Shown one piece after another: positions 1 to 12,600 of a stretch of DNA of 64,000 nt. A program made the position numbers and the translations under genes. Every line of letters begins with the position of its first letter. The first letter of the stretch is position 1. The stretch comes from Kaistella polysaccharea. Its GTDB lineage: Bacteria > Bacteroidota > Bacteroidia > Flavobacteriales > Weeksellaceae. The DNA is taken from positions 1,178,001-1,242,000 of the forward strand of contig NZ_CP084528.1 of NCBI RefSeq assembly GCF_020410745.1, read 5' to 3'. A model generated the notes under the pieces. The model saw only the letters and a program-made list of their open reading frames with translations, was not told where the DNA came from and searched no databases.

Positions 1-161
1 TCTTCTAATAATATTTTTCTGGGGTTTAAGAGTTAAAAGTGGAAATCAAAATTAAACATAATTCACAAAAAAATTTGATCAGAATCCAGTTTTGCTGAAG
101 TCAAGTTTCAGTAATTCGAGAACTTCGGAATTAGCACAAAATTTTCTATGGCGTTGCTTGT
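1..161. other. Partial cassette at the window edge, no ORF visible
   Basis: These 161 bases lie beyond the first visible recombination site and end in TTGCTTGT before its AAC. I see no start-to-stop reading frame of useful length here. It is presumably the gene-proximal end of a further cassette whose body lies outside the window. Confidence 0.5.
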
Positions 162-285
162 AACGGTTGGGTATTTCTGTTGGCGGGGACTTTTTATTAC
201 AAGTCTTTGTAAATATAACAAATTGAACAATTAGCGAAAATCTTGATGATATAAACTTCAGCCCCGCTAATAGAAATACCTTGTT
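162..285 (-). repeat. attC-like site 1 (type 1)
   Basis: Starts AACGGTTGGG and ends AATACCTTGTT. The outer arms GGTATTTCTGTTGGCGGG and CCCGCTAATAGAAATACC pair over 18 bp with two G.T wobbles when the plus strand folds. The right border GTTGTAGGC is the inverse complement of the border GCCTACAAC of site 2, so the gene between them forms one cassette. Confidence 0.85.
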
Positions 286-296
286 GTAGGCAGTGC

Positions 297-1691
297 TTAA
301 TATAGTTTTCCAGGATATTCTTCCGCAATTATTTCCTCGATAGATTTATGATCTTTTATTGAATTTAAATTCTCTAATATTTCTAGAGTTTCACGATATT
401 GCATTGCTTCTGGCAAAACGGTAAATTCAGCTTCAAAGCCAAGTTCAGCAATTTTATTTTCGATTTCGGCTAGACTGACATTAAAAAATTCTTTTCTATA
501 ATTCATCATATTTACCTTTCTTTCACTGAAAGCTTTATGAAGTTCAGCTTCTAGCGTTCTTGCTTCATCAGAATATATCATAGCGTGAACATCAAACTGA
601 AATGGTACTGAAGCATCTCCAAGTTCACGTACTCTATCAATAGGTTCCAATCTTCTGGTCATTCCAATTTTGTAAACGTTTTCACCAAAAGATCCGAGGT
701 TTGAAATTATATAAACATGTCCACGTTTAGTTTGTTGAGCCATCGATAAAGCTCTTTCCTTTTTTTCTTGTGCATTTAGAAGTTCCTGTTCAAGAAGAAG
801 AATTTGTGCATGTAATTGTTGTTGTAGTTCTCCAGTTGCTTTCTCAACTTCTTTTCTAGCTTTTTGTAATGCTTTCTGAAATGTTTCTTCTTCCTTCTCT
901 GCCTTTCTTTGAGCTTGCTCAAATTCACGACGCGCCTTTTCTTCTTCGCGTAATTCTTCTTGAATTGCACGCATTGCTTCTTTCTCGTCTTGGCGTTTTA
1001 CTTGAAACTCATATTCTAAGATTATTTCTTGTAATTTAAGTTCTAAATATTCGTTCGAGAGATAAACAGTAGAGCTTTCACCAAGTTTGTTTAACGTTTC
1101 ATACGATTTTTTAATCCTTTCTTTAATCTGATTGATGTTATTCCATTTAACTTTTGATATTAAAGCATTGCACTCACCATTGAAAGCACGAAGAATTAGT
1201 TTAGTGAATTTTTTTGTCGAAGCTCGCCCTTTTGCCTCACTGCCATCAATGGTCCATCTCGTATTACAAATTGCAGCTGTATCGAGTTGAATCATGCTTT
1301 TTTGTTGTTCGATAATGCTTTTTTGTTCAGCACGGTACTCTTCAGATTTTTCAAAATCGTAAATAGGTTCATAAATTCCAAATTCAATTAAATCTATTTT
1401 CGATTCAAATAAGCTCACATCTTTTCTCAGTCGCGTATAAGTTTCCAAGGAAGCTTGGTAAGTAATATCTAATTTTTCAAAATCACTCTGCAGCTTTTGA
1501 AGTACTTCTGTTTTATTCTCAATTGTTGTATTTAGTTCCTTGGTCTTTTCAAATATTAAAGATTGTATTTCAATTTCTTTGTTGACGATTTCTTGTTCAA
1601 TATTCGAAATTGGTTTGTACTTTTCTAGTTGCGTTTTTAACAGTTTAATTTCATTTAGTTCTTTTCTCTTCAAAAAGTCAAATAATCCCAT
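297..1691 (-). CDS. DUF4041 / T5orf172 (GIY-YIG-like) cassette protein
   Basis: 464 residues. An N-terminal coiled coil (about 10-90) is followed by a DUF4041-like segment, a second long charged coiled coil (about 235-310, rich in E, K, Q) and a C-terminal T5orf172/Mug113-type domain (about 325-405). The last has the GIY-YIG-like core GHVYIISN followed by VYKIGMTRR, with a downstream E and a final N/F-rich strand. Related proteins occur in phages and in phage-defence neighbourhoods, where they are thought to be nucleases or DNA binders. It is the largest cassette gene seen, and the stop lies 11 nt inside the left border of its cassette. The start at MGLFDFLKRK fits family N-termini. A role in phage conflict is inferred. 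Confidence 0.75.
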   Translation of the reverse strand: MGLFDFLKRKELNEIKLLKTQLEKYKPISNIEQEIVNKEIEIQSLIFEKTKELNTTIENKTEVLQKLQSDFEKLDITYQASLETYTRLRKDVSLFESKIDLIEFGIYEPIYDFEKSEEYRAEQKSIIEQQKSMIQLDTAAICNTRWTIDGSEAKGRASTKKFTKLILRAFNGECNALISKVKWNNINQIKERIKKSYETLNKLGESSTVYLSNEYLELKLQEIILEYEFQVKRQDEKEAMRAIQEELREEEKARREFEQAQRKAEKEEETFQKALQKARKEVEKATGELQQQLHAQILLLEQELLNAQEKKERALSMAQQTKRGHVYIISNLGSFGENVYKIGMTRRLEPIDRVRELGDASVPFQFDVHAMIYSDEARTLEAELHKAFSERKVNMMNYRKEFFNVSLAEIENKIAELGFEAEFTVLPEAMQYRETLEILENLNSIKDHKSIEEIIAEEYPGKLY

Positions 1692-1747
1692 ATTTCATGT
1701 TTTTATCTCTATGTTTTTGTATGCGTGATCTTGGTTGCATTGCCTAC

Positions 1748-1867
1748 AACGGTTGGGTATTTATGCAGGCGGGATAAAAATACGAAAACTTTATACTTGC
1801 TAAAAACTTAATTAATCGCTAAAATCTTCGATGAAAACTTCATACCCGCTTGTATAAATACCTTGTT
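1748..1867 (-). repeat. attC-like site 2 (type 2)
   Basis: AACGGTTGGG to AATACCTTGTT. The arms are GGTATTTATGCAGGCGGG and CCCGCTTGTATAAATACC, again 18 pairs with G.T at the same two positions as type 1 but different Watson-Crick pairs at three positions. It is nearly identical to sites 7 and 9 (two differences each). Left border GCCTACAAC, right border GTTATCGGC. Confidence 0.85.
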
Positions 1868-1892
1868 ATCGGCAGTTTATTGTAATCGAAAT

Positions 1893-2798
1893 TTACCGGT
1901 ATTCATAGACTCGTAAAGTGACGTTATCAAGTTTCCCATCAATAGTTTCAATTTTTTGAATCCAATTGCAATAGTTATCATAAACATATTCATAGCGATT
2001 GAATCTATTTCCAGTTTTTGAAGTACATTTCTTTTCTATCATGTTGTTGTTTGCATCAAATTTGTATTCACATTTGAAATTTCCAATAGGTCCATCATAG
2101 TGATAGCCAATTTGATTATTGTTAGAATTATACTTTTTAATCTCAGTACTTTTCACCTTTTTATTTTGTGAATTTAAACCTATTCGTTCTATTTCATTTC
2201 CTCTACCATCATACTTTAGAGAAATTATATCATTAACTAATTTTCCATCTGCATCATATTGATATTCTATGATCGCTTCTTTCTCTCTTTTTCTAATTAC
2301 TTTTGACTTTAAATCATTTCTTTCATATTTGATGACTTCAATTTTCTTTCCAGTAGAATCAAAAACGTTTATTTCTTTTCTAAGTAGAGTAGAAATTGTA
2401 TCTTTTATTTTATATGTTATTTCCTCAATATTTTTTCCATTGCTGTCAAATTTGTAAACGTTTTTTATCAAAATATCCTCAATTTGTGTGTTCGGTTCAT
2501 ATAAATATTGAGCCATTACTTCCTGAACATTTCCATTAATATCAAAAAAGAAGGTTTCGTGAACGTGATTCCGTCTTAAGTCAGTTTTATAAATAAGTTT
2601 ATCCGAATTTGATACTACTTCATGAACTGTTGATTTATATGATCTGACTTTTCCTTTTAAGTTATCATTTGCTAAAGTATTACCTTCATTTAAATTATTT
2701 TCGCAATTAATTCGCTCTTTTTCAGAGTTTGATATTTGTCCAAACATAAATGTTATTTGACAAACCATTAAAATAGGTAGTAAATATTTTTTTTTCAT
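1893..2798 (-). CDS. Secreted YD-repeat-like cassette protein
   Basis: 301 residues with an N-terminal signal peptide (MKKKYLLPILMVCQITFMFGQ). From about residue 85 on it repeats a Y/F-D-x-N/D-G-x-x-I-E pattern, for example YKFDSNGKNIEEI, VFDSTGKKIEVI, YQYDADGKLVNDI, KYDGRGNEIERI and YKFDANNNMIEKK. This is the rhythm of RHS/YD beta-hairpin repeats and of short wall-associated or lipoprotein relatives common in Flavobacteriia. There is no RHS core or toxin tip. It is likely periplasmic or surface exposed. Function unknown; immunity or surface-binding roles are only guesses. It occupies a cassette bounded by GTTATCGGC and GCAGATAAC. Confidence 0.7.
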   Translation of the reverse strand: MKKKYLLPILMVCQITFMFGQISNSEKERINCENNLNEGNTLANDNLKGKVRSYKSTVHEVVSNSDKLIYKTDLRRNHVHETFFFDINGNVQEVMAQYLYEPNTQIEDILIKNVYKFDSNGKNIEEITYKIKDTISTLLRKEINVFDSTGKKIEVIKYERNDLKSKVIRKREKEAIIEYQYDADGKLVNDIISLKYDGRGNEIERIGLNSQNKKVKSTEIKKYNSNNNQIGYHYDGPIGNFKCEYKFDANNNMIEKKCTSKTGNRFNRYEYVYDNYCNWIQKIETIDGKLDNVTLRVYEYR

Positions 2799-2838
2799 TC
2801 TTAATTCTTTCTATCGAAGTGGTGAGTAAATTGCAGAT

Positions 2839-2960
2839 AACGGTTGGGTATTTCTGCAGGCGGGATAAAAATACGAAAATTACATACTTGCTATAAATTT
2901 GACAAATAGCGAAAATCTCCAACTGAAAAACGTCCTACCCGCTTGTATAAATACCTTGTT
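2839..2960 (-). repeat. attC-like site 3 (type 2/3 hybrid)
   Basis: AACGGTTGGG to AATACCTTGTT. The left arm reads GGTATTTCTGCAGGCGGG (as type 3) but the right arm reads CCCGCTTGTATAAATACC (as type 2), giving one C.T mismatch in the stem where the other sites pair. It looks like a recombinant or mutated copy. Confidence 0.8.
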
Positions 2961-3062
2961 GCGCGATGTTTTTATTTGCAGTTTTTTGTTTTTCGATCCT
3001 CAGATATTTTCTTTAAAAAACGGATTTATAATCTTCCACAAAGTTTTAATAAAATAGCGCGC
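2961..3062. other. ORF-less 102 bp cassette
   Basis: This segment between sites 3 and 4 has matching inverted borders (GTTGCGCG on the left, CGCGCAAC on the right), so it qualifies as a cassette, yet no ORF above a dozen codons is present on either strand. It could be a decayed cassette, carry a small RNA or regulatory element, or be filler. No clear promoter or hairpin is visible. Confidence 0.6.
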
Positions 3063-3186
3063 AACGGTTGGGTATTTCTGTTGGCGGGGACTTTTTATAA
3101 CAAGTCTTGGTAAATATAACAAATTGAACAATTAGCGACAATATTCATGATAGGAACTTCCGCCCCGCTAATAGAAATACCATGTT
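3063..3186 (-). repeat. attC-like site 4 (type 1)
   Basis: AACGGTTGGG to AATACCATGTT (CCATG in place of the usual CCTTG). Type 1 arms. Right border GTTGTGCG matches the border CGCACAAC of site 5 across the next cassette. Confidence 0.85.
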
Positions 3187-3198
3187 GTGCGAAGTATT

Positions 3199-3993
3199 TT
3201 ATTTCCAAACTTCAAAAATATTCGAGTCATTCAGTTTGAATAATTTATTCGAAACAATATGATCTCCTGTTTCATTTATTTCTTTTACTCTATTTTTTAG
3301 TTCTTTAATGTCAGATATAGAACTGCTTCCCGTTACAAAAAGTAAATCTCGTGCTGGAATTGCTATGATTATTTCCCCATTAACCGGAAAATTATTATGA
3401 TTCCAAATGTCTAATAATATTAAACTTGATTCATAATTTCCGCCCGCGATTAACATGAAAATTTCTTCGTTGCCATTTCGTTCAATATTCTCAATTATAG
3501 AATTCAAATTATCGATTGCTAAATTTTTAAGTTGATTAAATTCCAAGTTTAAAGACTTTAAATCGTCTTTTTGTAAATAAGAAATATTGCTTTCAAGGTC
3601 TTCGGCGTAGAAAATATACAAATCCGAATTATACTTTTCATAAACGTGGTCCTGAAAATTTTCAGTTAGATTAGATAATTCTATTACAAAGCGGTAGTCT
3701 TTAATTATTGGAATAATCCTAGACAATTCTATTGATTCTTTTTTTGAATACAAAGTTTTAGAAGCGTTTATGTATCGTTCTATTATTTCATCAAGTTCTT
3801 CTGGATTAAAACAATACTCAGAATAACTGTTATTTAAGTAGTGAGAAAATTGTTCACCTTTTCTGTCCTCTGTTTTAATTTCTAAATTATCAATGCTGAG
3901 TAATGAAATCTCCTTTACTTTCTCGCATAGTTTTTCATAGAAAAGATTTGAAAACTGAATTTCTGTTAGAAGTTTATTCTTTAATTTTTCCAT
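3199..3993 (-). CDS. DUF1444 (YtpQ-like) family cassette protein
   Basis: 264 residues. The middle has the DUF1444 pattern: SRIIPIIKDYRFV, then LYIFYAEDLESNISYLQKDDLKSL, then LKNLAIDNLNSII, then a C-terminal IPARDLLFVTGS segment. Members are cytosolic proteins of unknown function, found singly and near toxin-immunity loci. The open frame extends 12 codons further upstream to a TTG inside the cassette border; the ATG of MEKLKNKLL is the likelier start because it leaves the recombination site non-coding. It fills one cassette bounded by GTTGTGCG and CGCACAAC. No private promoter is evident. Confidence 0.75.
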   Translation of the reverse strand: MEKLKNKLLTEIQFSNLFYEKLCEKVKEISLLSIDNLEIKTEDRKGEQFSHYLNNSYSEYCFNPEELDEIIERYINASKTLYSKKESIELSRIIPIIKDYRFVIELSNLTENFQDHVYEKYNSDLYIFYAEDLESNISYLQKDDLKSLNLEFNQLKNLAIDNLNSIIENIERNGNEEIFMLIAGGNYESSLILLDIWNHNNFPVNGEIIIAIPARDLLFVTGSSSISDIKELKNRVKEINETGDHIVSNKLFKLNDSNIFEVWK

Positions 3994-4027
3994 GAATTTA
4001 TAACATACTTTGTGAAATATTGCGCAC

Positions 4028-4151
4028 AACGTTTGGGTATTTCTGTTGGCGGGGACTTTTTATAACAAGTCTTTGTAAATATAACAAATTGAACAACTAG
4101 CGAAAATCTTGATGATAGGAACTTCCGACCCGCTAATAGAAATACCTTGTT
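4028..4151 (-). repeat. attC-like site 5 (type 1)
   Basis: AACGTTTGGG (one change from AACGGTTGGG) to AATACCTTGTT, with type 1 arms. Right border GTTGGCGGC, left border GCGCACAAC. Confidence 0.85.
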
Positions 4152-4164
4152 GGCGGCAGTTTTT

Positions 4165-4623
4165 TTATTCAGTGCCGAATAATTTTCCATTAAAAGTATG
4201 AGTACAGCAGTTACAAAATGTGTTCATATCTTTTGCTTTTAGATTTGGATTCGAGATTTGTAAAATTCCGCTTTTGTCAACATATAAACCAGAAAAATAA
4301 GAGGATTCTCCAGTTCTTACAAAATCTTCTTTTTCATCTTCTCTTAAAGCGACCATCCCAAATATTGCATCAGAACTATTTAATCTAGATTTTGCTTCAC
4401 TAAAAACAGTGTCCCAATCCGATCCAACTTTTGACAACAGAAATCTATAAAGTGGTGTGTAATCTAAACCTCTTTCTTTTCGACCAAACATTTTTCCTTT
4501 CGTTTGTTCTAATGTTTCCTTTTTACTGTTTCTTGTACGTTTAAAATCTCCACCAAAATTATGATGAACATTATATGTTTTAGTATTTACTTTTCTAAAT
4601 AATTTAGATTTTTCTTTGTTCAT
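4165..4623 (-). CDS. Hypothetical cassette protein with C-terminal CNCC motif
   Basis: 152 residues, no signal peptide. The N-terminus is basic (KSKLFRKVNTKTYNVHHNFGGDFKRTRN). The rest is a compact soluble fold containing LYRFLLSKVGSDWDTVFSEAKSRL, and the protein ends FCNCCTHTFNGKLFG, a cysteine cluster that may bind metal. I do not recognise the family. The start ATG follows a short A-rich stretch typical of Flavobacteriia initiation. The gene sits alone in a cassette bounded by GTTGGCGGC and GTCGCCAAC. Confidence 0.7.
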   Translation of the reverse strand: MNKEKSKLFRKVNTKTYNVHHNFGGDFKRTRNSKKETLEQTKGKMFGRKERGLDYTPLYRFLLSKVGSDWDTVFSEAKSRLNSSDAIFGMVALREDEKEDFVRTGESSYFSGLYVDKSGILQISNPNLKAKDMNTFCNCCTHTFNGKLFGTE

Positions 4624-4703
4624 TTTTTACTTTTAAAAAAAAACTGAATATCATTTTTTTTTCGCGGAATATCTTTGATTGCAGTCGGTTTAAAATTGTC
4701 GCC

Positions 4704-4827
4704 AACGGTTGGGTATTTCTGTTGGCGGGGACTTTTTATAAGAAGTCTTTGTAAATATAACGAATTGAACAATTAGCGAAAATCTTCATGATATAAACTT
4801 CCCACCCGCTAATAGAAATACCTTGTT
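4704..4827 (-). repeat. attC-like site 6 (type 1)
   Basis: AACGGTTGGG to AATACCTTGTT, type 1 arms. The right border GTTAGCGG contains the stop codon of the adjacent gene: the TTA that reads TAA on the minus strand starts inside the GTT core. Confidence 0.85.
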
Positions 4828-5368
4828 AGCGGTTCGGCATATTTTCTTGATTTTCTATTAATTTTTTTGTCAAAAGGTTTTCCAAGTCATTAAAGTTACA
4901 TTTTAAAGTGTTGGAAGTTATAGATAATGGTGTTCCATATATTTTATTATTTCCCTGTAAAAGTTTTTTCTTAAAGCCATTTACTCTTTCAACATAATAG
5001 TCAGGATTTGATATATAAATTAATAAAAATTTTGTCGAAGCAACTTTTTCTGTTTTTATTTCGATGATATCATTCCATTTTATAAGTCCAACACTTGAAG
5101 CATTTGAATTATCCAAAATTCCGTCATCATCAACTGTTAATCCAATTTTTCTCTCTAATAATTTTTTAATTCCGTAAATGCCTGTTGCAGAGAAAAAAAT
5201 AATAGCCGCGATACCTGCGATTCTTATTATTTCCAGACTTCTGAAAAACAATGATATAAACATTTCAGGTTTAGTAGAGAATAAAATTCCGCATACTACA
5301 AATAAAATAGACGCAAAAGTTCCAAGAAATAATTTCGTTTTGCTTAATGGAATTTCAATTTTGTTCAT
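4826..5368 (-). CDS. STM3941-like small membrane protein
   Basis: 180 residues. Two transmembrane helices (about 12-34 and 45-68) separate a short loop. A cytosolic beta-rich C-terminal domain follows, with the pattern LTVDDDGILDNSN...VGLIKWNDIIEI typical of STM3941-type proteins (a PH-like fold). Function unknown; relatives are frequent in mobile and toxin-immunity contexts. The TAA stop overlaps the GTT core of attC-like site 6, so the final codons depend on the recombination border, a feature seen in some true integron cassettes. Start ATG at MNKIEIPLSK. Confidence 0.7.
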   Translation of the reverse strand: MNKIEIPLSKTKLFLGTFASILFVVCGILFSTKPEMFISLFFRSLEIIRIAGIAAIIFFSATGIYGIKKLLERKIGLTVDDDGILDNSNASSVGLIKWNDIIEIKTEKVASTKFLLIYISNPDYYVERVNGFKKKLLQGNNKIYGTPLSITSNTLKCNFNDLENLLTKKLIENQENMPNR

Positions 5369-5422
5369 TTTAATTTTTTTCGAAATCTCATTCTTTATTT
5401 CTCGGTTTTTTTGCTGACCGCT

Positions 5423-5542
5423 AACGGTTGGGTATTTATGCAGGCGGGATAAAAATACGAAAACTTTATACTTGCTAAAAACATAATTAATCGCTAAAAT
5501 CTTCGATGAAAACTTCAGACCCGCTTGTATAAATACCTTGTT
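5423..5542 (-). repeat. attC-like site 7 (type 2)
   Basis: AACGGTTGGG to AATACCTTGTT with type 2 arms. Only two bases differ from site 2. Left border ACCGCTAAC, right border GTTACCTG. Confidence 0.85.
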
Positions 5543-5556
5543 ACCTGAGGTCTTTT

Positions 5557-6042
5557 CTACTCACTAAGTTTTCCGTCTTTGTAATTCTGAATTACTTTTT
5601 CCTTTCCATTCTCATTATACATTTCCCATGGTCCGTCATAAATTCCATTTTTCCAATTTCCAATTCCTCTTAATTGTCCGTTTTCGTACCAGTATTTATG
5701 AGTTCCATTTGGTTTACCGTCGATGAATTCTCCTTCACGTGCTTTTTTGCCGTTAGAATGCCAAAATTCCCACTGTCCATTTTCTTTGTGATTTTTAATT
5801 TCACCTTTTGAAAATATATTACCATTTAAGAAGTATGCGGTTTTACTTCCGTCGGTTATAGGTTTGAATTCAAGTTTTTGAGATTTATCTGTCGGTATGT
5901 TCTGAGCATTTTTTAAAAAATCTGATTTTCCGATCAATGTTTCTCCAATATAAATTTCGTAATCATCCATATTGATGTTTTGAGAAAACATATTTAAAAA
6001 ACAGAACATTGTAAAAGTCAATGTAAAAAATATTTTTTTCAT
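5557..6042 (-). CDS. Secreted MORN-like repeat cassette protein
   Basis: 161 residues with a signal peptide (MKKIFFTLTFTMFCFLNMFSQ). The C-terminal half (about 70-161) holds four MORN-variant repeats: NGQWEFWHSNGKKAREGEF, NGTHKYWYENGQLRGIGNW, YDGPWEMYNENGKEKVIQNY and a final KDGKLSE. This variant is common in Bacteroidetes secreted proteins and in proteins linked to toxin-antitoxin or immunity loci. The open frame can be extended 32 codons into the neighbouring recombination site; the ATG before the signal peptide is chosen instead. It sits in its own cassette bounded by GTTACCTG and CAGGTAAC. Confidence 0.75.
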   Translation of the reverse strand: MKKIFFTLTFTMFCFLNMFSQNINMDDYEIYIGETLIGKSDFLKNAQNIPTDKSQKLEFKPITDGSKTAYFLNGNIFSKGEIKNHKENGQWEFWHSNGKKAREGEFIDGKPNGTHKYWYENGQLRGIGNWKNGIYDGPWEMYNENGKEKVIQNYKDGKLSE

Positions 6043-6070
6043 GCGGGATTTTGTTTTTAAGATCGCAGGT

Positions 6071-6193
6071 AACGGTTGGGTATTTCTGTTGGCGGGGACT
6101 TTTAATAAAAGTCTTTGTAAATATAGCAAATTGAACAATTAGCGAAAATCTTGATGATAGGAACTTCCGACCCGCTAATAGAAATACCGTGTT
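6071..6193 (-). repeat. attC-like site 8 (type 1)
   Basis: AACGGTTGGG to AATACCGTGTT, type 1 arms. Right border GTTGGGCG pairs with CGCCCAAC of site 9. Confidence 0.85.
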
Positions 6194-6207
6194 GGGCGAT
6201 CGCTTTT

Positions 6208-6732
6208 TTACGGTTTCTGATATTCTTTTAAATAGTTATAAGTCGCGTCTTTTAACGACTTTTTTAAATTATTCATTTCATCGCCACCACCACTTTTGCG
6301 AATTCCAGTCGCTTGAATTTCTCTATTATCTCTTATGTTTTTGAAATTTATTACCGTTTTTAATGTTGCTACAGAGAAACCAAAATGCCAATTGATTATT
6401 GAAATATCAGTATCAATTATTAAAGGTTCTTCACCATCAACTTCGTCAAAACTTTCAATAAATTTTAAATTTAAATTGGTTTCGTTAGCAAGTTCTTTGA
6501 TAGATAATTTGAAAGTTTCCTTGACATTTGGTTGCGCTATTCCTCCGAACACCGTTCCAACCATTCCTGAGAAGTTTATAGTATTTTGACTTTTAGTGTT
6601 TAATTGGAAATAAATAGTTTTTCCATCGTAGAAGTTTTTATTTAAAGTGCTATTTGTATAATTATGAGAAGTGCCACAACTCAATAATGTCAGCATAGTA
6701 ATAAATTTTAACAATAATTTCAAGTTTTTCAT
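6208..6732 (-). CDS. Cassette lipoprotein, family not recognised
   Basis: 174 residues. MKNLKLLLKFITMLTLLSC is a lipoprotein signal with the lipid-bearing cysteine near residue 19, so the product is expected at a membrane facing the periplasm. The mature part is soluble, with VGTVFGGIAQPNVKETFKLSIKELA and a later DTDISIINWHFGFSVATLKTVINFK segment. I do not recognise the family. The upstream in-frame TTG lies within the recombination border, so the ATG is preferred. Cassette borders are GTTGGGCG and CGCCCAAC. Confidence 0.7.
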   Translation of the reverse strand: MKNLKLLLKFITMLTLLSCGTSHNYTNSTLNKNFYDGKTIYFQLNTKSQNTINFSGMVGTVFGGIAQPNVKETFKLSIKELANETNLNLKFIESFDEVDGEEPLIIDTDISIINWHFGFSVATLKTVINFKNIRDNREIQATGIRKSGGGDEMNNLKKSLKDATYNYLKEYQKP

Positions 6733-6760
6733 ATATATATCTTTTTTTAAAGTGGCGCCC

Positions 6761-6880
6761 AACGGTTGGGTATTTATGCAGGCGGGATAAAAATACGAAA
6801 ACTTTATACTTGCTAAAAACTTTATTAATCGCTAAAATCTTCGATGAAAACTTCATACCCGCTTGTATAAATAGCTTGTT
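6761..6880 (-). repeat. attC-like site 9 (type 2)
   Basis: AACGGTTGGG to AATAGCTTGTT (AGCTT for ACCTT). Type 2 arms, two differences from site 2. Right border GTTAGTGGC. Confidence 0.85.
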
Positions 6881-6895
6881 AGTGGCTGCCAATAT

Positions 6896-7387
6896 TTAAA
6901 GAAATAATCTCTTATCGTTTTTTTTAGCAATTTCTAAAGTGTCCATATTATTTTTAAAATCTTTGTTTTTCTTTAAAAGAACAAATAATTCTTCTTTAAA
7001 CTTATAAATTTTAACTTCTGTCTTCGTAAGTTTTGATTCGGTTAAATTAACTTGTGTTGAAATATAAATCTTGCATTTAAGTTTGTTTCCTTTTTTTAAA
7101 GTAATTTCATCTTTAAAATTCGGCATCATTAGATTTTCTTTTCCAAAAACATAGTTTTTGCCTTTCAATTTTTGAATACTATATTTATAAATCAGTTCAT
7201 TTAAATGGTCTTTTTCATTTTTAGAAAACTCAATATTACTTTTATAATTTTTATACCAGTCTATTTTAAACTCTCCATTTTCAACATTTAGATTATAATT
7301 TACGGTTGAAATATATAAATCAAATTTTTCTTCTTTCGAACAACTTGTTATTAAAATGACAACTAAAATCAAGCAAAAATTTTTCAT
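6896..7387 (-). CDS. Cassette lipoprotein, family not recognised
   Basis: 163 residues with a lipoprotein signal (MKNFCLILVVILITSC, lipobox ITSC). The mature part is lysine-rich and probably beta-rich (NYNLNVENGEFKIDWYKNYKSNIEF; LKCKIYISTQVNLTESKLTKTEVKIYKF). Small periplasmic lipoproteins of this size in Flavobacteriia are often of unknown function. A 36-codon upstream extension of the frame runs through site 10 and is not credible as coding. Cassette borders are GTTAGTGGC and GCCACTAAC. Confidence 0.7.
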   Translation of the reverse strand: MKNFCLILVVILITSCSKEEKFDLYISTVNYNLNVENGEFKIDWYKNYKSNIEFSKNEKDHLNELIYKYSIQKLKGKNYVFGKENLMMPNFKDEITLKKGNKLKCKIYISTQVNLTESKLTKTEVKIYKFKEELFVLLKKNKDFKNNMDTLEIAKKNDKRLFL

Positions 7388-7426
7388 TTTTTCTTCTTTT
7401 TGTTTTCGCGCGGGTTGGTTGCCACT

Positions 7427-7550
7427 AACGGTTGGGTATTTCTGTTGGCGGGGACTTTTTATAACAAGTCTTTGTAAATATAACAAATTGAACAATCAGC
7501 GAAAATCTTGATGATAGGAACTTCCGACCCGCTAATAGAAATACCTTGTT
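7427..7550 (-). repeat. attC-like site 10 (type 1)
   Basis: AACGGTTGGG to AATACCTTGTT, type 1 arms. Right border GTTATGCGAG is matched by CTCGCATAAC at site 11, ten of ten. Confidence 0.85.
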
Positions 7551-7563
7551 ATGCGAGGTTTCT

Positions 7564-8091
7564 TTAATTAGATAACATTGTTAAAAGTTCGCATTTTTGT
7601 TTGTCAGAAATAGTATAAGTTTCACATATTTCATTATGCTTATTATTTTTTATTCCTAATTCTCCAGGAATTGGCCTAAATAGTTGAAAGACATTAACAA
7701 AACTTAAAGCGTTTCTTTTAAAGGAAAGTAACAAATTAGGTTTATTTCCATAGTCATTAACAATTTGAATTTTTAGTAGAAATTTTCCAAAACTTTTTCC
7801 AAAAAAGGTTTCTAAAATGGGATTTAAAATTATTAATAATGCAAACGAAACAGCAAATAATTCATACATGTCATTAAATTTGCGTCCAATTAATTTATAA
7901 ATTATTATTCCTAAAATTACATAAATAATTAAATCAATAATTTTCGCAAAAAGTCTAATGCTAAAATTTCGAATGGTAGGATTGTATTTTATGTCAAAAT
8001 CCACCACTTCTTGGTAACGATTTCCATAAGAATCTTTTTTTATTCTTCTAACTTTTTTTTCGGTTGTTAATTCAGAAATTTTCTTTGACAT
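7564..8091 (-). CDS. RDD-family membrane cassette protein
   Basis: 175 residues. After a charged cytosolic N-terminus (about 1-45) comes FSIRLFAKIIDLIIYVILGIII, the RDD signature region with the conserved R and D. A second helix follows (about 85-105), then GKSFGKFLLKIQIVNDYGNKPNLLLSFKRN, the typical GKxxGKxxxxI segment with a conserved arginine. RDD proteins are small membrane proteins, some acting as ion antiporters. The role here is unknown. The ATG of MSKKISEL is preferred over a TTG ten codons upstream. Borders are GTTATGCGAG and CTCGCATAAC. Confidence 0.75.
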   Translation of the reverse strand: MSKKISELTTEKKVRRIKKDSYGNRYQEVVDFDIKYNPTIRNFSIRLFAKIIDLIIYVILGIIIYKLIGRKFNDMYELFAVSFALLIILNPILETFFGKSFGKFLLKIQIVNDYGNKPNLLLSFKRNALSFVNVFQLFRPIPGELGIKNNKHNEICETYTISDKQKCELLTMLSN

Positions 8092-8140
8092 TTTGAATCC
8101 TATATTAGGTTTTTTACACAATCTTTATGAAATCTCGCAT

Positions 8141-8261
8141 AACGGTTGGGTATTTCTGCAGGCGGGCATAATAACCAAACTTTTTCTACTCGAAATATAC
8201 TAAATATATAACACAAATCTCGTTTTGAAAACTTCCAGCCCGCTTGTAGAAATACCGTGTT
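8141..8261 (-). repeat. attC-like site 11 (type 3)
   Basis: AACGGTTGGG to AATACCGTGTT. The arms are GGTATTTCTGCAGGCGGG and CCCGCTTGTAGAAATACC: a third combination of stem pairs, fully paired and with the same two G.T wobbles. The loop sequence differs from types 1 and 2. Right border GTTGCCCGCA. Confidence 0.85.
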
Positions 8262-8605
8262 GCCCGCAGTGTTTTTTTGCGAAATTTAGTCCAAAATTTC
8301 AGTTGAGTTAAATTCGTAATTATTTAAAAATACCATCATTTAGCTCGATATTTTTTCCTTAGAAATTCCAAAATTTATTTCCGCACATTTGCGGCATTTA
8401 TTCGGTGCGATTTCCAATATTTTTTTTTCGTCGCTATTTTCAATATTTATTCCGGTTTTTTGTCGTCCGCTCTTTAATATTCACGCTGTCTGTTTTGAGA
8501 ATTTCCACACGTTTAGCACGGAATTTTTTAGATTTTTATTTCAGAAATTTTAGCCGTTAAAACAGTAAAATTTTAATTTTGAACGATATTTTTCACATTG
8601 CGGGC
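8262..8605. other. ORF-less 344 bp cassette
   Basis: Bounded by GTTGCCCGCA and TGCGGGCAAC, ten of ten complementary, so it behaves as a cassette. Every frame on both strands is broken by stops; the longest ATG-started frame on the minus strand encodes only about 17 residues. It may hold a decayed gene, a small RNA or a regulatory element. Confidence 0.6.
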
Positions 8606-8729
8606 AACGGTTGGGTATTTCTGTTGGCGGCAACTTTTTATAACAAGTCTTTGTAAATATAACAAATTGAACAATTAGTGAAAATCTTGATGACAGGAAC
8701 TTCCGCCCCGCTAATAGAAATACCGTGTT
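8606..8729 (-). repeat. attC-like site 12 (type 1, recombinase-proximal)
   Basis: AACGGTTGGG to AATACCGTGTT with type 1 arms, but with GGCGGCAAC where other type 1 sites read GGCGGGGAC, shortening the inner stem. Its left border GCGGGCAAC is identical to the attI-like half site at 9133-9141. Confidence 0.85.
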
Positions 8730-8759
8730 GCACGCAGTTTTTTTATTTCTCAATTATTT

Positions 8760-9104
8760 TTAGTTTCTCAAGAGCGTTAGGAAGAAGAAATGTTTTAGTT
8801 TCTCAAGTCTTAATTCGCTTGAAAGTCCGTTTTCAAAGTCGAAAATTTCAGATGATTCCGATTTAATACTCATCATTATGTCAGAGGCGTCATGTTGTAT
8901 AAATTCGGTAGAATTAAAATTTTTCTCAAAAGGTTTTATTTGAGTTTTTATTCTAAAATAATAATTCTTTGAGTATCCTGATTTTATCAATAATATGAAG
9001 ATAATTGTATCGCTACTTTCTAAAAAATAAGAACTTTTAAACTTCTTAAGATTTAATTTTTTACAATTTATATCAAATTCATTTCGAAAATCTTTAATCT
9101 CCAT
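8760..9104 (-). CDS. First cassette gene, small cytosolic protein (possibly DUF4304-like)
   Basis: 114 residues, no signal or membrane segment. The pattern FRNEFDINCKKLNLKKFKSSYFLESSDTIIFILLIKSGYSKNYYFRIKTQIKPF resembles small DUF4304-type proteins, in which a strand-rich core follows a helix and a GF(K)KxG/S stretch; the match is weak. The open frame extends 12 codons upstream to a TTG inside the attI core, so the ATG is chosen. As the cassette nearest the recombinase it should be the most recently inserted one and the best transcribed from the array promoter. Borders GTTGCACGCA and TGCGGGCAAC differ at one position. Confidence 0.6.
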   Translation of the reverse strand: MEIKDFRNEFDINCKKLNLKKFKSSYFLESSDTIIFILLIKSGYSKNYYFRIKTQIKPFEKNFNSTEFIQHDASDIMMSIKSESSEIFDFENGLSSELRLEKLKHFFFLTLLRN

Positions 9105-9132
9105 TCTTTCAACGATCGTGGTTTTTAAAATT

Positions 9133-9141
9133 GCGGGCAAC
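9133..9141 (-). other. attI-like half site (insertion point)
   Basis: On the minus strand GTTGCCCGC follows GAGA and starts the first cassette. It has the same GTT-plus-variable-tail form as every cassette border but no palindrome arm on its recombinase side, as expected of an attI core rather than an attC. A second GTTGCGTAT lies 17 bp further toward the recombinase in the same orientation. Confidence 0.6.
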
Positions 9142-9144
9142 TCT

Positions 9145-9174
9145 CAAATATACGCAACTTTCACAATCCCACAA
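9145..9174 (-). promoter_or_regulatory. Cassette-array promoter (Pc-like)
   Basis: On the minus strand TTTG (its TTG complementing 9172-9174) is followed after 19 nt by TATATTTG (complement of 9145-9152). This is a full match to the Bacteroidetes TTTG/TAnnTTTG promoter. The predicted start of transcription falls a few bases downstream, on the attI-like core, so a cassette inserted there would be transcribed at once. Confidence 0.7.
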
Positions 9175-9281
9175 ATTTTTTTTATTTAGGGTTAATTCCT
9201 CACTATCAGGTATTTATTTTTTTTATACTTTCGTAGTTATACAAAATACGCAAGTTTAACTATTCAAATACGCAGGTCGTA
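9150..9281. repeat. Three ATACGCA direct repeats beside the attI-like core
   Basis: ATACGCAACTTTCAC at 9150, ATACGCAAGTTTAAC at 9246 and ATACGCAGGTCGTAC at 9268. The last two are spaced 22 bp apart, about two helical turns, and the first overlaps the array promoter spacer. They may be accessory binding sites for the recombinase, comparable in position to the direct repeats of integron attI sites. This is inference from position only. Confidence 0.45.
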
Positions 9282-9283
9282 CT

Positions 9284-10369
9284 ATGGAAAATACCTACTC
9301 CACTTTTGATAAGAAATACTTCATTCCCGAAGAATCTACTCACCGGGATCAAAACATTATTCTCCTTAAATTCCCCAAAGATTTCGCTTTGGTCAACATG
9401 CTGAAAAGCGCTGCCAAATGCCGTTGGTCCCAGACCAAAAAATCCTGGTATGTCGCCGACAGCCCTTTCAACCGCGATCTCTTTGGTCTCGATCGGAAAA
9501 TTGTCGGCAAAGAAGTACTGCTCAAAATTCATCCTGTAAACTTAGATGAATTTGCAAAATACCAGAATCACCTTATTCTCAAAGGATTCAGCCAAAACAC
9601 CATACGCGTCTATTCCCTGGAATTTGCGCAGTTGCTTTACATTCTCAAATCATTTCCCATAAAAGACCTCACCAAAGAAAAACTTCAAAGTTATTTTCTC
9701 TACTGCCACAAAGAATTAAAACTTTCCGAAAACCAAATTCACAGCCGAATGAATGCCGTGAAATTTTATTTTGAAAAAGTGCTGCATCAGGAAAAAATCT
9801 TCTTTGATATTCCGCGACCCAAAAAACCTCTACTTCTTCCCAAAGCATTGAACACCACCGAAATTAAAAAACTTCTGAATGTCACGGTGAACCCAAAACA
9901 CAAACTCATTCTTCAATTATGCTATGGCATGGGTTTGCGCGTAAGCGAGATCGTAAATATTAAAATAGAACACATCGATTCTAAAACCATGAAAGTCTTA
10001 ATTGCTTCAGCCAAAGGAAAAAAAGACCGTTACGTAAATCTTCCCCAAACCATACTCCAGGATTTACGGCAATATTACAAAGCATTTACACCCAAAATCT
10101 ATCTTTTCGAAGGACAGTCTGGCGGCAAATACGCCATCAGAAGCGCCCAATTTGTTTTTAAAAACTCCATGAACAAAGCCGGAATAATAAAAACAGTCGG
10201 CATTCACAGTTTACGGCATTCCTACGCCACACATCTTTTAGAATACGGTACCGATATTTCCCTCATCCAAAAATTACTGGGCCACAACGATATCAAAACC
10301 ACGCTCAACTATACGCAGGTCGCCGACCGCACCATTTCCAAAGTCCAGTCACCTTTAGATCACCTCTAA
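9284..10369 (+). CDS. Tyrosine recombinase of the cassette array
   Basis: 361 residues. An N-terminal extension (about 1-80, with CRWSQTKKSWYVADSPFNRDLFGL) precedes a SAM-like core-binding domain (about 85-175) and the catalytic domain (about 185-350). The catalytic set is complete: R219 in GLRVSE, K244 in SAKGKKDR, H308 and R311 in HSLRH, H334 in LLGH and nucleophile Y343 in NYTQV. K244 to H308 spans 64 residues, close to Xer proteins; the additional domain that IntI proteins carry in this interval is missing. Position and divergent orientation make it the likely enzyme acting on the repeats. Base composition is richer in GC than the cassettes and like the chromosomal genes to its right. Confidence 0.9.
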   Translation: MENTYSTFDKKYFIPEESTHRDQNIILLKFPKDFALVNMLKSAAKCRWSQTKKSWYVADSPFNRDLFGLDRKIVGKEVLLKIHPVNLDEFAKYQNHLILKGFSQNTIRVYSLEFAQLLYILKSFPIKDLTKEKLQSYFLYCHKELKLSENQIHSRMNAVKFYFEKVLHQEKIFFDIPRPKKPLLLPKALNTTEIKKLLNVTVNPKHKLILQLCYGMGLRVSEIVNIKIEHIDSKTMKVLIASAKGKKDRYVNLPQTILQDLRQYYKAFTPKIYLFEGQSGGKYAIRSAQFVFKNSMNKAGIIKTVGIHSLRHSYATHLLEYGTDISLIQKLLGHNDIKTTLNYTQVADRTISKVQSPLDHL

Positions 10370-10458
10370 AACGTGGCAAAATAGTTTTTTTGGGAGCAAC
10401 ACGGTTTTGGCTTCTTTGCCAAACCTTACCTGCTCTCCGTTACAATTCCTCATTTCGC

Positions 10459-10482
10459 CGCGCTCCGCCTCGGCGGAGCGCG
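10459..10482. repeat. GC-rich perfect hairpin
   Basis: GCGCTCCGCC, loop TC, GGCGGAGCGC, extended by one further C-G pair: an 11 bp stem with a 2 nt loop, far above the local GC content. It is part of a REP-like intergenic element. Confidence 0.7.
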
Positions 10483-10885
10483 CCTCATTCCGGGATTTTC
10501 ACTGCGATCAGGGCTAGAATGAAGTTTCAGCTTTTTCTCACAGGCCACACGCAGATTTTGTCGCGGTTACTTCCATCTAAAAAAAGATTTTTTAAAACGT
10601 CGAAGTGCAAAAAACATCTTTTTAAAAGCAAACTACTTTCGCAGGTAAAATTTACTTCTGTCAAAATTCTAAAAATTTAAAATGATTAAAGTAAACTTTT
10701 AGCAAAATATTTTACGTGTGAAGAGATTTCATTTTCCGGAAGTTCCGGAGAACAGAAAAGCAAAAAAATATGCTTTTAACGCCATTTTTATTCGAAATAA
10801 AAAACGAAAAAAAAATGCACATTTAACAGCATAATTTTATAAAAGGAAGTTGGGTTAAAGTTTTGCTGGCACCACGCAACGTGAT

Positions 10886-10918
10886 AGCGCTGTTAGAGCT
10901 CAAAGCTCTAACAGCGCT
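10886..10918. repeat. Perfect 15 bp inverted repeat
   Basis: AGCGCTGTTAGAGCT, loop CAA, AGCTCTAACAGCGCT. No T-run follows directly on either strand, so a cruciform or RNA hairpin of unknown role is more likely than a terminator. It stands 7 bp before the first CTCTTTTCGACGC block. Confidence 0.7.
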
Positions 10919-11223
10919 TTAAAACTCTTTTCGACGCTCGCTTCGCTCGCGCCCTGCGCCACTATTTTTCAGTAAATTTTTGGCTGATACAAAGGTAAAT
11001 TTTATCAAAATCGAAAAGAAAGGGCAAAAAACTGAAACTATAAAAACGAAAAAAAAGCACATTTAGCAGCATATTTTTTCAAAACCAATTTCATTTCAAA
11101 TTTTCACCGGTAAGACGCTACAAATACTCTTTTCGGCGCTCGCTTCGCTCGCGCCTCATTCTCAAGCCAAAATAAAATATGCTAAAACACCAAAAAAAAT
11201 CTCCGCCGAAGCAGAGATTCATT

Positions 11224-12600
11224 TTAATTAGAAGCGCTTGTTTTCCGAATGTCGGTTTTGAAAACGCAGTCTTTATAGCGATCGTTGATGGAGATAAATA
11301 TATTCGGTAATTTTTCTTTTACCCATTTTTCTACCATTTCATTTTTCTTTTTGTTCAGCGCCATTTGTTTAATTCTGTTGTAATCTGTCGCAATATCCAG
11401 TTGGTGTGCTGCGATTACATCGTCGATTTTAACAATGGTTACTGTTTTTCGGTCCTGTTCAGCCGTATCTTGAAATACATCAGTAATATCGCCTTTATTC
11501 AGACCCGCAATTTGATACGAGATGGTTGGCGGCAAATTTAATTTTTCAATTTTATCTGACCCATCTTCGGGCGATGTTAGAATTCCCGCGTTAAACTTCG
11601 TTTTCTTATCATCTGAAAAACGGTAAGCGGCATCTTTAAAGCTCATCTTTCCGTCGATAATTAAAGTTCGGATGCTATCCAGTTCTTTTTTAGCGGAGGC
11701 GATTTCTTCCTCATTAGGCTCGGCTTTCAAAAGGATATGACGGGCGTCGTAATTTTTTCCACTTTTCTTCACCAGTTGAATCAGGTGATAGCCGAAATCA
11801 GACTCTACGGGATCCGACATTTCGCCTTCCTGTAAATTCAGCGCTGCGGCTTCAAACGGTTTCACCATTTTCCCTTTAGAAATATTGGTGTAAAGACCGC
11901 CTTTCGACGCCGATCCTGGATCATCAGAATAAATTCTCGCCTGACTTTCAAAGGATTCGCCCGCTATAATATCTTGTTTGATTTTATTCAGTTTAGCAAT
12001 GATTTCGTCTTTGTGCGCATTCGTCAATTTAGGATACATTACGATCTGCGACAGCGAAACTTCATCTTTAACTTCCGGGAGCTGATATTTAAAGGTATTA
12101 TAGAAATCGGTTACTTCATTCGGCGTAACATCGGCTTTTTCTGTAATCCGGCCATATTTACTTTGCCCGTAATAATTATCGGAGTCTATTTTTTCAATGG
12201 CATTTTTCATTTCATAAGACGTCCGGAATTTATACTGCGCAAGCATTGCTTTTTCATCGGCGAACTGACCTAAGATCTGGTTATATTTCTGCGAAGCGTT
12301 TTCTTTAAGTGCCGCCGACCGGTTTTCAATTAAAGTATCACGCTTGGCTTCGTAGATTAAAAGCTTGTTGTTTACGATGCTTTCTACAAATTCACACCGG
12401 TCAGAAACTGGTCCGCCCTGTTGTTTGGCAAAGTTTGCCTGATCTGCAATATCAGATTCCAAAATAATTTCGTCACCCACCACTACTGCAATTCCATCAA
12501 CCAAATCACCGGCTTTCATTTTAGACTGCGCCTTCGTAACAATGCTGAAAAACACCATCATAAGGGTGAGAAGAAAAATATTTTTAACGTTCTTGTTCAT
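11224..12600 (-). CDS. SurA-like peptidyl-prolyl cis-trans isomerase
   Basis: 458 residues with a signal peptide (cleavage near KAQS, residue 25). A SurA-type N-terminal chaperone region starts with DGIAVVVGDEIILESDI and is followed by two parvulin domains: about 175-270 (VSLSQIVMYP ... GSASKGGLYTNISKGKMVKPFEAAALNLQEGEMSDPVESDFGYHLIQL) and about 280-395 (DARHILLKAEP ...). Only the first domain keeps the full parvulin signature. The product should act in the periplasm, helping outer-membrane proteins fold. It lies just after a second PPIase gene on the same strand (65 nt gap), likely co-transcribed. Confidence 0.9.
   Translation of the reverse strand: MNKNVKNIFLLTLMMVFFSIVTKAQSKMKAGDLVDGIAVVVGDEIILESDIADQANFAKQQGGPVSDRCEFVESIVNNKLLIYEAKRDTLIENRSAALKENASQKYNQILGQFADEKAMLAQYKFRTSYEMKNAIEKIDSDNYYGQSKYGRITEKADVTPNEVTDFYNTFKYQLPEVKDEVSLSQIVMYPKLTNAHKDEIIAKLNKIKQDIIAGESFESQARIYSDDPGSASKGGLYTNISKGKMVKPFEAAALNLQEGEMSDPVESDFGYHLIQLVKKSGKNYDARHILLKAEPNEEEIASAKKELDSIRTLIIDGKMSFKDAAYRFSDDKKTKFNAGILTSPEDGSDKIEKLNLPPTISYQIAGLNKGDITDVFQDTAEQDRKTVTIVKIDDVIAAHQLDIATDYNRIKQMALNKKKNEMVEKWVKEKLPNIFISINDRYKDCVFKTDIRKTSASN

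Follow-up and report, generated by a model that had tools for sequence, protein, structure and literature searches.

The 64-kb window analysed here (the whole stretch of 64,000 nt) corresponds to C1:1178001-1242000 in the 2.69-Mb, single-contig genome of Kaistella polysaccharea (G000). It carries a gene for a tyrosine recombinase and an array of gene cassettes with the layout of an integron. Twelve palindromic sites of 120–124 nt, located at window positions 162-8729, alternate with the cassettes, and the recombinase gene diverges from them behind an attI-like core (Table 1). A reading of the sequence alone had described this region as an integron-like array run by a recombinase other than IntI, the integron integrase. 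The cassettes, their one main orientation and an attI beside the divergent recombinase were all confirmed, and the twelve sites were borne out by pairing of their arms, by a covariance model and by a stem detector. They are, however, only the attI-proximal part of the array, which continues to the left of the window. The full array, as defined by left and right arm pairing, starts at G000:C1:1158321 and includes 41 sites in one orientation over ~30 kb; two divergent distal sites at C1:1156426 and 1157038 bring the total to 43.

A search with the left arm of the site revealed 42 forward and no reverse matches, 41 of the 42 lying within C1:1158321-1186631. The covariance model, trained on 54 sites of relatives and two window sites, recovered exactly the 12 sites from the window at E≤0.01. 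At a threshold of 30, the stem detector found 41/41 sites in the array region, as compared with none in one base shuffle and three in the reversed sequence, and gave two chance matches in window 10370-64000; these controls rule out chance palindromes as the source of the sites. The detector prefers unbroken stems and may under-find bulged sites everywhere, yet 20 of the 21 sites that it detected at IntI loci have bulges. It also picked up arrays overlooked by counts of exact 13-mer repeats. No known RNA family matched the sites (window 1-12000, E≤1). As with attC sites of integrons, a palindromic site with AAC/GTT cores closes each cassette. A second length class of ~185 nt is found intermixed with 124-nt sites within one array (loci L128, L093 and others).

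What follows GTT in one site is reverse-complementary to what precedes AAC in the next. This complementarity of cassette ends includes 399 of 480 positions in 40 cassettes (best of 10,000 permutations, 251), and the two flanks of a single site match like unrelated flanks (5.0 vs 4.9 of 12). Since the ends of each cassette are complementary, a circularised cassette gives one long hairpin. When the 34 distinct circularised sites among the 41 were compared, 90.2% of the cells were paired in the proposed structure, and in 185 cells both partners were changed. The covariation score was 0.362, as compared with 0.119 (standard deviation 0.008) after shuffling and ≤0.090 after sliding. Pairing extends 12 bp outside the AAC/GTT core, with the outermost four columns mostly unpaired. 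The same was seen at 31 loci of the related recombinase groups A and B (see below), where end pairing reached 5.81 of 8 positions over 199 neighbour pairs (maximum 4.10 in 200 permutations); this test covered loci with at least three sites and excluded group C.

Eight cassettes are present twice in the array, seven pairs being 100% and one pair 99.6% identical, and another cassette (c27) is a 79% relative of a duplicated one. The 3' site is 100% identical in 8/8 pairs. Seven pairs have a 5' site on both sides, and these 5' sites differ in six of them (73–97% identity), the remaining cassette having moved together with its neighbour. As the 3' site is constant and the 5' site variable, the mobile unit consists of a gene and its 3' site. 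Six of the seven cassettes closest to attI belong to duplicate pairs (16 of 41 overall; hypergeometric 0.009) and stand in another order than their partners, as is expected if copies re-enter at attI.

Comparison with 18 related arrays indicated turnover, as their cassette content is almost wholly different. At the nucleotide level, one gene cassette is shared with G007 (92% nucleotide and 88.7% protein identity; the recombinases are 81% identical). A second shared cassette lacks a gene and occurs at 91–93% identity in three copies in Kaistella antarctica (L124), and one additional match at 31% was found at the protein level. An identical cassette order in relatives, which the sequence-only reading had held to speak against it, was thus not observed. 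Across the Bacteroidota, related recombinases adjoin arrays whose sites have the same architecture.

The array terminates with AAC followed by TCTCAAATATACGCAA (window 9139). The attI core was found within the 170 bases preceding 12 of 15 group A recombinases, changed in some of them and next to a variable cassette side, and was absent there in three. In silico, the attI adjoining the recombinase is the predicted insertion point. Several AAATACGCA-type repeats lie between attI and the recombinase start (window 9146-9283) and in some relatives too, and are possible recombinase binding or operator sites. Of the 36 genomes from the genus, 28 carry the core with ≤1 mismatch and none its backward control, and the exact core occurs twice in G000. 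The second locus (L364, C1:898731-901417) includes a short array with one degenerate site at 898731 and no recombinase within the 6 kb read, which suggests that one recombinase serves several platforms in trans. Twenty further copies of the core away from group A recombinases (L366-L385) have flanks that resemble cassette ends by eye. A site was detected within 3 kb of six of these, and two copies (L373 and L382) head 11-site chains; in 12 of the 20, no site was detected in the stretch read. Pooled over the copies, the array side (206 kb) has 43 sites and the other side (80 kb) has 4.

For the analysis of strand-specific features, distinct sites with a neighbour within 3 kb were used (33 from the 41 of the array), together with sites from 23 group A and 15 group B/C loci chosen by hand. 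At 4 of 20 IntI loci at least three sites were detected, and the 21 sites of these four, one of which (L362) has poor end pairing, served as the IntI control. In all 34 distinct circularised sites, AAC of the bottom strand is directly followed by G, a feature given as typical of attC sites in a passage of PMC2727003. Passages of PMC4792948, PMC7790495 and PMC2727003 further describe docking of extrahelical bases of the sites by I2, the additional domain of IntI. A bulge on the R''-L'' arm was found in 0/33 sites of the present array, 13/172 sites of group A and 7/62 of groups B and C, as compared with 20/21 control sites (14/15 without L362). Hence, the sites of the array lack the extrahelical bases on this arm that are characteristic of integrons.

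Another mark was found instead. Two G-T wobbles three pairs apart are present in 31/33 sites of the array, 133/170 of group A, 20/58 of groups B and C and 1/20 of the IntI control, the pattern being weaker in B and C than in A. The wobble G lies on the 5' arm in a ratio of 86:2 in the array, 351:12 in group A, 80:8 in groups B and C and 9:9 in the control; the opposite strand would carry A-C mismatches at these positions. The bottom strand was the more stable one in 32/33, 146/172, 44/62 and 8/21 sites, respectively, and folds more stably than the top strand in 40 of the 41 array sites. An asymmetric spacer was dropped as a special trait, as the IntI control sites share it (4/0 in 12/21).

The recombinase scored below the cut-offs of the integrase and Xer family profiles: 170 bits vs 265 for TIGR02249 (IntI), 193.2 vs 220 for NF040815 (XerA/'integron integrase', a name that reflects annotation), 158 vs 335.15 for XerC and 155 vs 329.6 for XerD. 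Residues R219, K244, H308, R311, H334 and Y343, invariant in 51/51 rows, are taken by us to be the catalytic residues of the tyrosine recombinase. The distance from the lysine to HxxR is 65 residues, as compared with 73 in XerD, 70 in XerC and a median of 107 in IntI. It is 64–65 in 25 group A rows and 65–68 in 20 group B rows, vs the median of 107 in 19 IntI rows, as measured by pattern with one IntI row misread (negative minimum). TIGR02249 positions 179-242, which represent I2, are unmatched, with 22 residues in their place. Thus, the sequence-only reading was right about the missing IntI domain and the short spacing, which is even below that of XerC and XerD.

The distinct N-terminal part reported in the same reading was also found, as a domain modelled as β-β-α-β-β-α with a mean predicted local distance difference test (pLDDT) score of 83.5 and a predicted template modelling (pTM) score of 0.59. 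It shows weak resemblance to DUF5710 in 25/40 members at E≤10 (best 8e-6) and to HARP in 1/40, and gave no PDB match below E 0.24. An SPL[DSE] tail ends 25/25 group A, 15/20 group B, 2/12 group C, 8/19 IntI and 0/16 XerC/D rows; an SPxD tail was discarded as an IntI signature, as TnpF-like and IS91-companion rows have it too. Identity as a phage integrase was also rejected: of 30 matching phage records, none covers more than 80% of the query, and the 20 listed are 28–38% identical. Other recombinase matches in G000 are XerD (above the cut-off), a XerC-like gene labelled by judgement and a 21-bit fragment, and no IntI above the cut-off was found in this genome. A Flavo-1 RNA (RF01705; 43.6 bits vs a gathering score of 42) lies right behind the recombinase gene at window 10422-10519 on the minus strand.

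In trees of 95 and 83 rows, both with long-branch warnings, the IntI-type rows formed a 100/100 clade that excludes the window recombinase, and the XerC and XerD rows were clades separate from it. It grouped with XerA/TnpF-like recombinases, which together with IS91-companion recombinases were nearest to groups A and B among the rows sampled. Forcing it into the IntI clade was rejected by the approximately unbiased (AU) test (p-AU 0.0006), and a sister relationship of the A and B recombinases to IntI was not (p-AU 0.30). Membership in IntI, which would have refuted the sequence-only reading, was rejected on bit score, spacing, trees and AU test. The statement in that reading that the system arose independently or diverged far from integrons stands as to the position outside the IntI clade; the origin may be either separate or that of a sister lineage of IntI, the sister relationship not being rejected.

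The names A, B and C were assigned after the locus layouts had been seen, and a later tree joined 24/25 group A rows. Group A recombinases diverge from their arrays, and those of groups B and C precede arrays that are read in their own direction. Upstream of group A recombinases there are 206 sites (386 kb), as compared with 5 downstream (206 kb); for group B, 66 sites are found downstream (216 kb) and 15 upstream (430 kb). At least two sites were found on the array side in 28/40 A, 16/59 B and 9/18 C loci, and on the other side in 0/40, 1/59 and 2/13, respectively. Loci L043, L045 and L054 were omitted from the side counts and the end-pairing test, being the same places as L124, L127 and L125. 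The best 80 of 208 named loci carry 79 Bacteroidota names and one title without a phylum, and include Sphingobacteriaceae, Chitinophagaceae and Cytophagales; the system, first placed in Flavobacteriia, is present there but not restricted to them.

Of 100 related genomes, 70 have arrays of the present kind according to the site model. At least five sites are present in 47/54 genomes with an A/B/C-type recombinase (best E <1e-40, a cut set after seeing the matches) and in 10/46 without, and outside the genus in 17/24 and 4/40, respectively; in these counts, values reaching 35 are lower bounds, and the site model includes sites from some of the genomes counted. IntI above the cut-off was found in 84/296 genomes of the wider phylum as defined by GTDB and in none of the order to which Kaistella belongs. 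XerD above the cut-off is general (10/12 genomes searched).

Some relatives were found in other settings. A 170-kb viral contig (L263) has a 13-site array at 715-10795 (10 site-model matches) adjoining a short I2-less relative that seems to lack the N-terminal domain. In L363, four site-model matches at 3007-5670 are separated by ~4 kb from an IntI gene, and the genome encodes a group C recombinase as well; L363 fits neither class cleanly and may be a mixed system. Group C recombinases are carried by Chryseobacterium plasmids (L343; NZ_CP041688, NZ_CP094530), one Chryseobacterium plasmid has IS91 transposases each beside another tyrosine recombinase, and IS91-companion relatives (group M) are present in many copies in G007. 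The group A recombinases of L065, L066, L068, L070 and L073, which belong to species of Parapedobacter and Sphingobacterium, are very similar and point to recent transfer between genera.

Segments between sites are 102–1462 nt long in the whole array, and the longest open reading frame (ORF) is on the minus strand in 36 of 41. Single-gene cassettes in the same orientation, as claimed from the sequence alone, account for 10 of the 12 in the window, which have one minus-strand ORF; the other two (2961-3062 and 8262-8605) lack a convincing gene. The cargo was assessed in 139 cassette proteins from eleven arrays, 30 of them from the present one. Among the 25 of 68 Pfam families listed, there were five streptomycin adenylyltransferases, three GNAT acetyltransferases (Acetyltransf_1) and two LinB-like proteins, with single cases of EcoRV, a PvuRts1I-like protein and methylases. 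PADLOC matches (25 of 88 models listed) included PD-Lambda-1, AriAB and restriction-modification parts. Anti-phage cargo is known in integron cassettes.

Table 1. Features of the cassette array and the recombinase locus (window coordinates).
Position	Strand	Feature	Remark
162..285	+	attC-like site, 124 nt	bottom strand as written; arm pairing, covariance model; 3' site of the cassette with ORF 297-1691
297..1691	-	cassette gene, DUF4041/T5orf172 protein	PADLOC PD-Lambda-1 (anti-phage), E 1.5e-181
1748..1867	+	attC-like site, 120 nt	arm pairing, covariance model
1893..2798	-	cassette gene, 301 aa	no Pfam match at E≤0.01
2839..2960	+	attC-like site, 122 nt	arm pairing, covariance model
2961..3062	.	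gene-less cassette, 102 nt between sites	copies in L124 at 91–93%
3063..3186	+	attC-like site, 124 nt	arm pairing, covariance model
3199..3993	-	cassette gene, DUF1444	
4028..4151	+	attC-like site, 124 nt	arm pairing, covariance model
4165..4623	-	cassette gene, hypothetical, 152 aa	
4704..4827	+	attC-like site, 124 nt	arm pairing, covariance model
4826..5368	-	cassette gene, STM3941 family	identical second array copy (c12/c34)
5423..5542	+	attC-like site, 120 nt	arm pairing, covariance model
5557..6042	-	cassette gene, MORN_2 repeats	identical second copy (c06/c35)
6071..6193	+	attC-like site, 123 nt	arm pairing, covariance model
6208..6732	-	cassette gene, hypothetical	identical second copy (c11/c36)
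6761..6880	+	attC-like site, 120 nt	arm pairing, covariance model
6896..7387	-	cassette gene, hypothetical	identical second copy (c13/c37)
7427..7550	+	attC-like site, 124 nt	arm pairing, covariance model
7564..8091	-	cassette gene, RDD family membrane protein	
8141..8261	+	attC-like site, 121 nt	arm pairing, covariance model
8262..8605	.	cassette without convincing gene	identical second copy (c19/c39); 79% relative c27
8606..8729	+	attC-like site, 124 nt, attI-proximal	arm pairing, covariance model
8760..9104	-	first cassette gene, 114 aa	identical second copy (c20/c40)
9139..9157	+	attI core AACTCTCAAATATACGCAA	second identical copy at G000:C1:901399
9284..10369	+	tyrosine recombinase, 361 aa, without IntI additional domain	N-terminal domain ~residues 14-66

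We interpret the locus, with a probability of about 0.87, as a chromosomal integron-like cassette platform with a recombinase from a clade other than IntI and capture of cassettes at attI by way of a bottom-strand hairpin. The cassette units, their specific end pairing, the attI junction, duplication, turnover and the lack of I2 and of extrahelical bases are all read directly from the sequences. The recombinase would recognise the folded bottom strand (the plus strand of the window) of the site in a circular cassette. Double-stranded attI (9139) would be its partner in an exchange at the AAC/GTT core, whereby cassettes would be stacked adjacent to attI. Recombination between two sites would lead to excision and re-copying of cassettes, and the conserved one-sided G-T wobbles may select the strand. 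Action of the recombinase on these sites is inferred, as is a single-stranded substrate, the latter on the basis of the covariation and of the one-sided wobbles. The second strand exchange, which I2 blocks in IntI, may be prevented here by the wobbles or by the N-terminal domain.

Several points weigh against this interpretation. The case is built on sequence comparison, and recombination, excised circles and strain-level change are not among the observations. Sites within one array share ancestry, and the statistics of the fold are therefore non-independent. Fewer than two sites were found on the array side in 12/40 A, 43/59 B and 9/18 C loci, some of whose contigs end early; a chain with paired ends is present in only 5/18 C loci, and two of 13 C loci have two sites on the other side. 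Six of the ten recombinase-less genomes with at least five sites belong to the same genus, and arrays can persist without the recombinase or be served by something else.

It is unlikely that the sites act as double-stranded palindromes in an ordinary tyrosine-recombinase exchange that requires no single-stranded hairpins. Such an exchange would agree with the lack of both I2 and extrahelical bases and with the near-perfect stems, which in a passage of PMC4792948 are found in CTXphi-type sites mimicking double-stranded DNA. However, the variable arms covary 12 bp beyond the core, which is explained by base pairing and not by double-stranded recognition, and the wobbles are one-sided here and in group A but not in IntI sites. 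The common core logic (AACG, GTT, gene with 3' site, attI), the SPxD-type tail found in many IntI and the sister position to groups A and B that was not rejected would suit a true integron, the recombinase of which is a divergent IntI with I2 lost secondarily. Yet the score of 170 bits is far from the cut-off of 265, placement inside the 100/100 IntI clade was rejected, the window protein belongs with XerA/TnpF-like recombinases, and the tail is not specific to IntI; a divergent IntI is hence quite unlikely.

Two gene-less cassettes in the window and the degenerate site at 898731 could be taken as signs of a decaying array in which the recombinase and cassettes are fossils, a view that we hold to be very improbable, as the recombinase has an intact reading frame with recognised catalytic residues and 7/8 duplicate pairs are 100% identical. 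The cassette common to G007, with a protein identity of 88.7% as compared with 81% for the recombinases, weakly hints at exchange. Mobilisation of the cassettes by the host XerC and XerD, with the recombinase as a passenger as in Xer-exploiting elements, is the least probable of all: the genome does have XerD and a XerC-like gene, and arrays are present in 10/46 genomes without an A/B/C recombinase, but the sites cluster on one side of the recombinase according to clade, attI abuts it, and it predicts arrays beyond the genus, whereas XerD is general.

The integron-like platform shares with sedentary chromosomal integrons cassettes that consist of a gene and its 3' site and mainly have one orientation, hairpin sites with AACG/GTT cores and an asymmetric spacer, an attI next to the recombinase, and large arrays with duplications and an anti-phage cassette. 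Unlike in those integrons, the recombinase lies outside the IntI clade and lacks I2, the R''-L'' arm of the sites has no extrahelical bases, the pairing of cassette ends continues for 12 bp past the core, and some genomes have attI cores at several places. With IntI integrases (TIGR02249), the recombinase has in common the tyrosine recombinase domain, recognised catalytic residues and, in many, the SPxD tail, but its lysine-HxxR distance is ~42 residues shorter, it has its own N-terminal domain, and it falls below the family cut-off. The spacing is closer to that of XerA/TnpF-like and IS91-companion recombinases (NF040815 and plasmid copies; ~63–64 in the XerA-like rows measured and 71 in the IS91 companion). 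No cassette chain was found at the flanks of the five copies tested out of seven, and several lack the N-terminal domain. XerC/XerD dimer resolvases are related recombinases without I2, but form separate clades, and the window protein reaches 155–158 bits vs cut-offs of 329.6–335.15.

In the passages on I2 in PMC7790495 and PMC4792948, this domain is reported from no protein other than integron integrases and credited with giving them single-strand recombination; direct proof of its role is said there to be missing because deletion of I2 kills IntI1, and the relation of I2 to attC sites is named a chicken-and-egg problem. IntegronFinder 2.0, in the part of PMC9024848 on Bacteroidetes, gave one complete integron, in Salinibacter ruber. 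Searches of open-licence PMC literature listed, by title and abstract start, no paper dealing with I2-less integrons or integron arrays of Flavobacteriia, which may be in print elsewhere.

In the system described here, I2 and extrahelical bases appear to be absent together. It seems rather probable that this is a second natural solution to the capture of cassettes as folded DNA, with an I2-less Bacteroidota clade of recombinases, bulge-free sites, the strand marked by two G-T wobbles, and several attI per genome served in trans. If so, the route by way of I2 and extrahelical bases would be just one of two, or these traits would have been added later to refine an integron that originally had no I2. 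Surveys based on IntI would probably miss arrays of this kind. As deletion of I2 kills IntI1, a natural integron-like system without both I2 and extrahelical bases would make the question of I2 and attC sites directly testable.

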